Of a stretch of DNA of 64,000 bases, positions 37,478 to 40,400 are shown in pieces. The notes beneath the pieces are model-generated. The model did not search any database. It was not told the origin of the DNA and was given only the letters and a program-made list of their open reading frames with translations. The stretch covers positions 18,830,646-18,894,645 of the forward strand of contig NC_134844.1 in the NCBI RefSeq assembly GCF_965363235.1, in the 5' to 3' direction. Made by a program: the position numbers and the translations under genes. This DNA comes from Mytilus galloprovincialis (lineage: Eukaryota; Mollusca; Bivalvia; Mytilida; Mytilidae). Numbering within the stretch: the stretch's first letter is position 1; every line of letters begins with the position of its first letter.

Positions 37478-40400
37478 CTACAAAATCAAGTAGAATGTAA
37501 ACAGATTAATCAAATATTTGAAAAATTCTTGCATTTAAAAAAAACCCAATTTTACAATCAAAAAGAATAATCATCAATGCATGACTATTAAATAACAAAT
37601 TGTTTCCATAATCAAAGTTCTTGCCTTGATGTACCTTTATTGTTCAGATGGCATAGAGCAAACATCATTCAATTAAAGTAGTTAAGGTTGAATGATACCC
37701 TACAATGACTGGCAAGCAAAACCAAATATCACATTCAACTTTTGATTATCCCAAGTCAGCTAATATTCTGTCTATTTTACACTGAGAGGTTTCAAAAATA
37801 TTAAAGATTGACACTAAAACTTTTAGGTTTAGATAAGACAAAGAAAGTTGTATCTGTTAATTATTACTTACTGCTACAAAATGTACTGTGCAGCCAGATA
37901 TCCTAACATTGGCTTTGATCACTTGCTCATGTGCATTATGTCCCTTGAATGATGGAAGGAGAGATGGGTGAATATTCAACATTTTACCATGCCACTTACT
38001 CACAAAACCACCTGCAAGTACAAAAATTATGAGTTATGTCCCTTGAATGATGGAAGGAGAGATGGATGAATATTCAACATTTTACCATGCCACTTACTCA
38101 CAAAACCACCTGTAAGTACAAAAATGGTGAGTTATGTCCCTTGAATGATGGAAGGAGAGATGGATGAATATTCAACATTTTACCATGCCACTTACTCACA
38201 AAACCACCTGTAAGTACAAAAATGATGAGTTATGTCCCTTGAATGATGGAAGGAGAGATGGATGAATATTCAACATTTTACCATGCCACTTACTCACAAA
38301 ACCACCTGTAAGTACAAAAATTATGAGTTATGTCCCTTGAATGATGGAAGGAGAGATGGATGAATATTCAACATTTTACCATGCCACTTACTCACAAAAC
38401 CACCTGTAAGTACAAAAATGATGAGTTATGTCCCTTGAATGATGGAAGGAGAAATGGATGAATATTCAACATTTTACCATGCCACTTACTCACAAAACCA
38501 CCTGTAAGTACAAAAATGATGAGTAATGTCCCTTGAATGATGGAAGGAGAGATGGATGAATATTAAACATTTTACCATGCCACTTACTCACAAAACCACC
38601 TACAAGGAGTTAAGTCCCTTGAATGAGGGAAGGAGAGATGGATGAATATTCAACATTTTACCATGCCATTTACTCACAAAACCACCTACAAGTACAAAAA
38701 TGATGAGTTAAGTCCCTTGAATGAGGGAAGGAGAGATGGATGAATATTCAACATTTTACCATGCCACTTACTCACAAAACCACCTACAAGCACAAAAATC
38801 ATGAATTACGTCCCTTGAATGAGGGAAGGAGAGATGGGTGAATATTCAACATTTTACCATGCCATTTACTCACAAAACCACCTACAAGTACAAAATTGAT
38901 GAGTTATGTCCCTTGAATGATGGAAGGAGAAATGGATGAATATTCAACATTTTACCATGCCATTTACTCACAAAACCACCTACAAGAACAAAAATCATGA
39001 ATTACGTCCCTTGAATGAGGGAAGGAGAGATGGGTGAATATTCAACATTTTACCATGCCATTTACTCACAAAACCACCTACAAGTACAAAATTGATGAGT
39101 TAAGTCCCTTGAATGAGGGAAGGAGAGATGGATGAATATTCAACATTTTACCATGCCACTTACTCACAAAACCACCTACAAGAACAAAAATCATGAGTTA
39201 AGTCCCTTGAATGAGGGAAGGAGAGATGGTGGAATATTCAACATTTTACCATGCCATTTACTCACAAAACCACCTACAAGTACAAAAAAGATGAGTTAAG
39301 TCCCTTGAATGAGGGAAGGAGAGATGGATGAATATTTAACATTTTACCATGCCATTTACTCACAAAACCACCTACAAGTACAAAAATCATGAATTAAGTC
39401 CCTTGAAAAAAAGAACCTACATGTTTAGTTTTAAATACATGCCTTTTTTTATTTGTTAATGGCTATGTACTAGTTTTCAGTAACTGTGAGTACTCTCAGT
39501 TCAGTACTTAGTATCTTTTATGATTTTCTTGGGTATTAATGAACTTAGCTTCAATCTGATTAAACTATTTTCAACTTATTTTTAAAGCATGTTCTTATAA
39601 TATGTTCAACTGTTACGTCACTGTGCATGGTAAGGGGGAGGGTTTGACATCAGCAAACAAGTTTAACCATCACCATATTTTATAAGAGCTGGTCCAAAGT
39701 CAGGAGCCTCAATTCAGTGTTGTTTGTTCATGTATATCATATTTGTTAATTCTTATACATAAATCAGGCCATTTATTTATTTAAATGAGGGCAAAAAAGG
39801 GAATCTAAAGGTACATTCAATTTTGTTTCAGTAAATAATTCTCCTTTGAGATAAACTGAAAGGAAATTTGATATTGAGATGACATAATATTTTCCATGGT
39901 GTTTTATATATATTATGGGACACAACCATGTTTATTATTCGATAAGATATATAACTTCTATTTACTGTTGTGAAGATGTCTTACATACCTGTTAATATTC
40001 TCATAAATCCTGCCAAGCAGACGATATCAATACCAGCAGACATCAAGGTAGCATGCAGTGCTTCATCAAAATCATCTCTGCTCTTATAATCTTTGTGGGA
40101 TATCACCTGTGGAGAAATATTTAAGAAATATTTTTATTGTATACAGGATAAAATATAAATTTACAGTAATCTTTATTGCAGAAATTATAAACATAAATAG
40201 CAATTTTAAGTTATCGATTCAATTCAAATTAGTACAAGATATAGTTCTATGACTCAGAATAAGATTGATAATTGATTGATTGAATGGTGTTTAACGCCAC
40301 TTTCAGCACTATAGCCCTATTTCTTGGCAGTCAGTTTTTATTCCTACGATAAGAAAACTAACAATCCTAGTCAATTACAAAACAACACAATAGATAAGAT

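Follow-up and report, generated by a model that had tools for sequence, protein, structure and literature searches.

How is a gene spliced correctly when the start of one of its exons, acceptor included, is repeated many times directly ahead of the exon itself? This question is raised by a 64,000-nt stretch of the Mytilus galloprovincialis genome (contig NC_134844.1; the whole stretch analysed is called the window), in which a gene of purine biosynthesis carries copies of this kind, here called decoys, upstream of the acceptor on which its full product depends.

The GART gene and its 98-bp array

The original prediction assigned the array to GART and to the exon encoding the NIH motif of its formyltransferase, and both assignments held. 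Exon translations of the minus strand, joined by hand, contain the Pfam domains GARS_A, GARS_C, AIRS, AIRS_C and Formyl_trans_N, the presence of GARS, AIRS and formyltransferase domains in one protein being what identifies GART. All 13 in-window GART junctions examined have a unique solution with zero mismatches, and the exons of the window encode, with no mismatch, residues 241-890 of P0002, a database gene product named 'trifunctional purine biosynthetic protein adenosine-3-like isoform X2 [Mytilus galloprovincialis]'. On the contig of the window (C7, 98,048,912 bases), sequence matching the N-terminal region of GART reaches as far as C7:18918816. Elsewhere in the genome, at least three decayed GART pieces were found on C7 and at least five weak matches, with 27-29% identity, on C11. 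The part of the gene surrounding the array is listed below, in window coordinates and with a slash marking the splice cut.

39989..40106, minus strand: exon before the array, ending in ILTG, with donor CAG/GTATGT (junction solution)
38012..39988, minus strand: intron of 1977 nt enclosing the decoys (junction solution)
37872..38011, minus strand: true exon of 140 nt with the 12-residue motif, acceptor TTGCAG and donor GCA/GTAAGT (unique zero-mismatch junction)
37298..37477, minus strand: coding part of the last exon (EEVDGG...ISWR), without the stop codon (junction solution)

Other features of the window were registered alongside the gene. A segment comprising the end of the last GART exon and the sequence following it (37132-37331) recurs 1,023 bp further on (36109-36308) with 98% identity. 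Decayed copies of two GARS-region exons lie on the minus strand at 26254-26351 (86% DNA identity), 20893-21106 (82%) and 14145-14317 (75%), the latter two with in-frame stops. By eye, open frames at 40591-42270 (minus strand, inside the intron preceding exon 40106-39989) and at 54883-57504 (minus strand) resemble LINE reverse transcriptases, and one at 33430-33810 (plus strand) resembles the C-terminal part of hAT transposases.

Tandem Repeats Finder, run on the window, reported the array at 37936-39407 (period 98, 15.1 copies, 93% matches) with a score of 2454, which no other of its 25 rows reached. A motif scan for acceptors, allowing up to three mismatches, placed 14 decoy acceptors in gene order on the minus strand, followed by the true acceptor with exon start 38011. 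The two methods agree with the head-to-tail arrangement of 14 acceptor copies ahead of the true one that had been claimed.

37936..39407, minus strand: 98-bp tandem array over the intron end, AG acceptor and exon start, with 15 acceptors, 14 of them decoys (Tandem Repeats Finder, acceptor scan, genome matches)
38110..39372, minus strand: whole stretch of the 14 decoy acceptors (acceptor scan)
39372, 39274, 39176, 39078, 38980, 38882, 38784, minus strand: last base of AG, decoys 1-7
38686, 38600, 38502, 38404, 38306, 38208, 38110, minus strand: last base of AG, decoys 8-14
39371, 39273, 39175, 39077, 38979, 38881, 38783, minus strand: decoy exon starts in gene order, 1-7
38685, 38599, 38501, 38403, 38305, 38207, 38109, minus strand: decoy exon starts in gene order, 8-14
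38606..38607, minus strand: site of a 12-bp loss adjoining acceptor 38599, the one weak decoy

In each 98-bp unit, the last 22 nt of the intron, up to and including the AG, are followed by the first 76 nt of the exon, so that the predicted unit length stood and the exon share of about 75 bp needed a slight correction. The AG is intact in all 15 copies, as expected of near-identical units with their own acceptors; the exception to this uniformity is the copy with acceptor 38599, whose unit, shorter by 12 bp, retains little of its pyrimidine stretch. Only the last copy holds the full 140-nt exon and the native donor. A search of 1.385 Gb in 331 contigs returned 15 matches to the 98-mer unit (counts being lower bounds), and because all of them sit at the GART locus, the array is no chance match. 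With tandem units of minisatellite size crossing an exon edge, the locus belongs among exon-intron boundary repeats.

Acceptor strength, reading frames and internal donors

Acceptors were scored with a matrix built from 12 real GART junctions, the array junction excluded, which is small and suited to ranking only. The true site scored 10.1, 13 of the 14 decoys scored between 7.7 and 11.6, and decoy 38599 scored 1.6; the leave-one-out scores of the real GART acceptors ranged from -1.7 to 11.7. Since 13 of 14 decoys match the score of the true site, acceptor sequence alone is insufficient for correct splicing and, within the limits of so small a matrix, acceptor strength was rejected as the reason for the correct choice. 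RNA structure was likewise rejected as a selector. A 10-bp hairpin in which the acceptor pairs with exonic GTGAGTAAGT reaches -8.0 at the true site and -9.0 in the five nearest decoys, and so fails to separate them; it falls to -3.1 in six other decoys, is replaced by a different fold (-2.0) in the deletion copy and is absent in two. Furthermore, the fold of a 371-nt piece was no better than that of shuffled sequences (z 0.51; 70 of 100 shuffles as good).

What sets the last acceptor apart is the exon behind it. Under exon definition, a splice site is chosen through the exon together with its donor, and such a mechanism would pick the last acceptor here, the sole one on a 140-nt exon with a donor. 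Splicing to it yields a protein of 997 residues. From the decoys, reading on leads to a stop in all 14 cases, 80-107 nt downstream of the acceptor (TGA in seven, TAG in five, TAA in two) and 3 codons (five decoys), 4 (one), 8 (four) or 12 (four) past FKG. The dependence of normal expression on the last acceptor fits these readings; the predicted premature stop is found throughout, although its description as lying about ten codons on, at a TGA in the next unit, best suits four of the 14. For decoy 38109, the closest to the true exon, the stop is at 38029, 157 nt ahead of the exon end at 37872.

No AATAAA or ATTAAA is present from the first decoy to the true donor, and three AATAAA lie upstream of all decoys. 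In the absence of such a signal across the array, a transcript spliced to a decoy would most simply extend as far as the true donor; its stop would then lie well ahead of that junction, which makes it a predicted target of decay. A stop well upstream of a junction marks a transcript for nonsense-mediated decay. The expected products would be GARS-AIRS followed by a truncated, presumably dead GARTfase.

The statement that no copy has the donor of the exon is accurate for the native donor, which the decoys lack, but each of the 15 copies contains an internal ATG/GTAAAA, and one real GART donor reads AAG/GTAAAA. From a decoy acceptor to this internal site runs a 24-nt microexon that stays in frame. 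The decoys resemble poison exons in that inclusion with reading on brings an early stop in all 14, and depart from poison or decoy exons with an acceptor and donor of their own in offering internal candidates only. On the matrix of the gene itself, ATG/GTAAAA scored 4.7, under all 13 real donors when these are scored with themselves included (at least 6.0) and above just two of their 13 left-out scores. Two other internal donors, TTT/GTGAGT (-3.2) and TGA/GTAAGT (3.1; in nine of 15 copies), scored lower and were set aside; on a vertebrate donor matrix, the three score alike, from 5.3 to 5.7.

Gene products with decoy traces and competing explanations

Database gene products in two species carry traces of the decoys. 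When the preceding exons are joined to decoy 39077 or to decoy 38881, translation reproduces residues 241-917 of P0002 exactly, including its end, FKGRNS.

38998..39077, minus strand: decoy reading ending in FKGRNS that reproduces P0002 241-917 (exon joining and translation)
38881-38802, minus strand: second decoy reading that reproduces P0002 241-917 equally (exon joining and translation)

P0003, isoform X3 of M. edulis, ends in FKGLNS, a tail also given by decoy 39273, and among the 360 proteins compared only P0002 and P0003 have an FKGxNS end. P0003 pairs this LNS end with NIHP, a pairing given by none of the 14 decoys of the single allele studied, so the composition of the array seems to differ between the species. 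A third product, P0001 of M. edulis, contains GFVSKWHG twice in a row, which is unique among the 360 proteins (313 with a comparable segment). The microexon route yields this repeat exactly, as tried on three decoys, and translated in full it gives the enzyme plus eight residues. Elsewhere in P0001, VVLVSG is joined directly to IDVAEK with 14 residues missing, and P0001 is on that account an imperfect gene model. A search of transcript fragments with a 146-aa query (proteins of about 80-256 aa) showed no Mytilus-named match among the best 120 of 5169, many of them unnamed; in a later protein search, P0241, a partial product of M. galloprovincialis, was the one Mytilus-named match among the best 120 of 430. 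The decoys may be used in splicing, judging from named gene products in two species that possibly reflect ambiguous read mapping, and isoforms X2 and X3 may be artefacts of short reads placed on near-identical copies.

The explanation which we consider probable is that the array is an expanded boundary-crossing duplication, a minisatellite that is for the most part passive, shows leaky splicing without a productive outcome and has no dedicated regulatory role. A tandem duplication across the intron/exon boundary of GART would have expanded to 15 copies, and occasional use of a decoy, of which the database products may be a sign, would produce transcripts with an early stop. For the proposal that the array regulates GART, no positive evidence emerged.

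The array might instead be entirely inert, with decoys never spliced and the decoy-ending isoforms arising as annotation errors, when reads of the true junction are placed on decoys. In favour of this, both decoys compatible with P0002, 39077 and 38881, depart from the true exon at just three of the first 74 positions, and the flawed P0001 model points the same way. Against it, the tail of P0002 reads RNS as in the decoys rather than HNAHEQ as in the true exon, a tail of the decoy type recurs in M. edulis, and the acceptor scores of 13 of the 14 decoys are comparable to that of the true site. We regard complete inertness as unlikely.

More copies could also mean more unproductive splicing, the repeat number acting as a tuned sink that governs how much GART is made, or in what proportion GARS-AIRS and the full enzyme occur. 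The scores of 13 decoys, similar to that of the true site, the stops reached by all 14 when read on and the decoy-tailed products recorded in two species speak for such a sink. In human cells, moreover, a shorter GART product consisting of GARS alone is made via intronic polyadenylation, the signal lying between exons 11 and 12, as described in PMC11297038, which cites a mouse paper for it. Both the human form and the mussel decoy form are truncated products of the same gene, but the latter would comprise GARS-AIRS and a broken GARTfase, and the array has no polyadenylation signal. The search for regulatory elements covered the hairpin and identified none. We hold this sink to be rather improbable. 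Just as improbable, in our judgement, is its extension into a heritable dial, in which GART output drops as decoys increase and each copy offers both a roughly equal acceptor, leading to unproductive or GARS-AIRS-only transcripts, and a would-be intron by way of the 24-nt in-frame microexon.

A further reading sees the birth of an intron: a decoy acceptor and the internal ATG/GTAAAA would bound the microexon and leave a new 74-nt intron (62 nt at one copy) up to the next acceptor. The doubled segment of P0001 and the conservation of the donor in every copy agree with it, and there is a precedent in the potato RdRp gene, where a boundary-crossing tandem genomic duplication created an intron whose splicing is proven by RNA (PMC4974935). 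There, as in GART, the duplication carries an intron end, an acceptor and an exon start, and an upstream cryptic exonic donor could pair with the next acceptor; in potato, however, the duplication is single, whereas GART has 14 extra copies and a new intron implied by one M. edulis gene model only. An imperfect repeat of eight residues likewise flanks a new intron in Bap170 of Drosophila pseudoobscura, according to PMC2809761. The low score of ATG/GTAAAA, the other odd junction of P0001 and the absence of the repeat from P0002 and P0003 make this reading very doubtful. Finally, near-identical repeats are difficult to assemble and P0241 (longest contig 58,378 bases) ends exactly at the exon before the array, but an assembly artefact is most improbable given that the copies carry patterned variants, with two identical pairs only, and that decoy traces appear in M. 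edulis products on other contigs (93,447,462 and 807,862 bases).

Two other systems help to place the locus. Decoy exons, such as those of OGT, hold back the splicing of introns and share with the GART copies the character of seldom-used intronic splice sites with stops; as described in PMC12017769, they have both acceptor and donor and a demonstrated effect on intron retention, whereas the GART copies, known from sequence, have no native donor. The other system is that of internal tandem repeats at exon-intron boundaries of human segmental-duplication genes, which alter splicing and form introns (PMC2812944). Like the GART array, these are minisatellites that straddle the edge of an exon, and they can change splicing and form introns, as the GART array may. 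Their units average 30 bp in four copies (39 at most, in morpheus exon 8), against 98 bp and 15 acceptors, and they belong to recently duplicated genes with RNA support, whereas GART was found once in the genome and its array is known from DNA and gene products. The GART array is a large new case of the known boundary-crossing tandem repeats. A literature search on alternative splicing of Mytilus GART, judged by titles and the beginnings of abstracts, found nothing on the topic, which is no claim of absence from print.

Evolution and significance of the array

A duplication over an acceptor would keep the complete exon at its 3' end, and one over a donor at its 5' end. From the anatomy of the locus, the array appears to survive because a complete exon remains at the 3' end of any acceptor-crossing duplication. 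GART contains a second, more diverged duplication of the same general kind, on the donor side of another exon.

44013..44179, minus strand: exon-edge duplication, 2.5 copies of a 64-nt unit at the donor end of exon 44258-44122

Its extra copies too are on the intron side, and the second copy keeps a donor-like AAG/GTAACA. In both cases the accumulation of copies on the intron side leaves GART intact. Exon edges may attract arrays, but random placement of the four arrays in the gene part gave a divided answer: at their present size, a mean of 1.16 touched an edge and two or more did so in 28% of trials, a share that was 2.8% when only the single founding units were placed.

Along the array, the differences from the true exon over the first 74 positions are 5, 5, 3, 3, 3, 3, 3, 4, 2, 2, 1, 1, 1 and 1 (Spearman -0.90), and a period of two units is visible in the eight distal copies, with distances averaging 3.67 at lag 2 vs 6.43 at lag 1. 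Variable sites occupy 8 of 22 positions in the intron part (14 copies, the deletion copy dropped) vs 8 of 76 in the exon part (15 copies; Fisher p = 0.008). On the same 14 copies the exon part has 7 of 76 (p = 0.0045), and an alternative cut at 24/74 nt gives 9 of 24 vs 7 of 74 (p = 0.003), all these p values being rough, as the copies are related by duplication. The lower variation of the exon part counts against an array neutral since its birth, except where the functional exon served as the source of later copies. One reading of the gradient is that new copies are seeded from the functional end, with the exon part under selection; alternatively, local homogenisation would produce a similar gradient. 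Four silent and six altering variants in decoy codons, set against an expected silent share of 0.24 (p = 0.20), do not show purifying selection. The decoy changes look neutral, with H to P in NIHP (one), S to F (two) and L to F (one). The first would be expected to destroy the enzyme in the real exon, NIHP being, as we assume, catalytic in GARTfase.

Artificial duplications have often served to study how a splice site is chosen. The GART locus is a natural test of the same choice, offering 13 additional acceptors with scores like that of the true site and a single weak acceptor. Many decoys are marked by variants, such as those at exon positions 17, 44, 59 and 73, so their use could be counted from long RNA reads and compared with copy number between individuals. 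Short-read annotation of such genes would be unreliable if decoys take part in splicing or attract misplaced reads. In the mussel itself, the array may show an early stage of intron birth by duplication.
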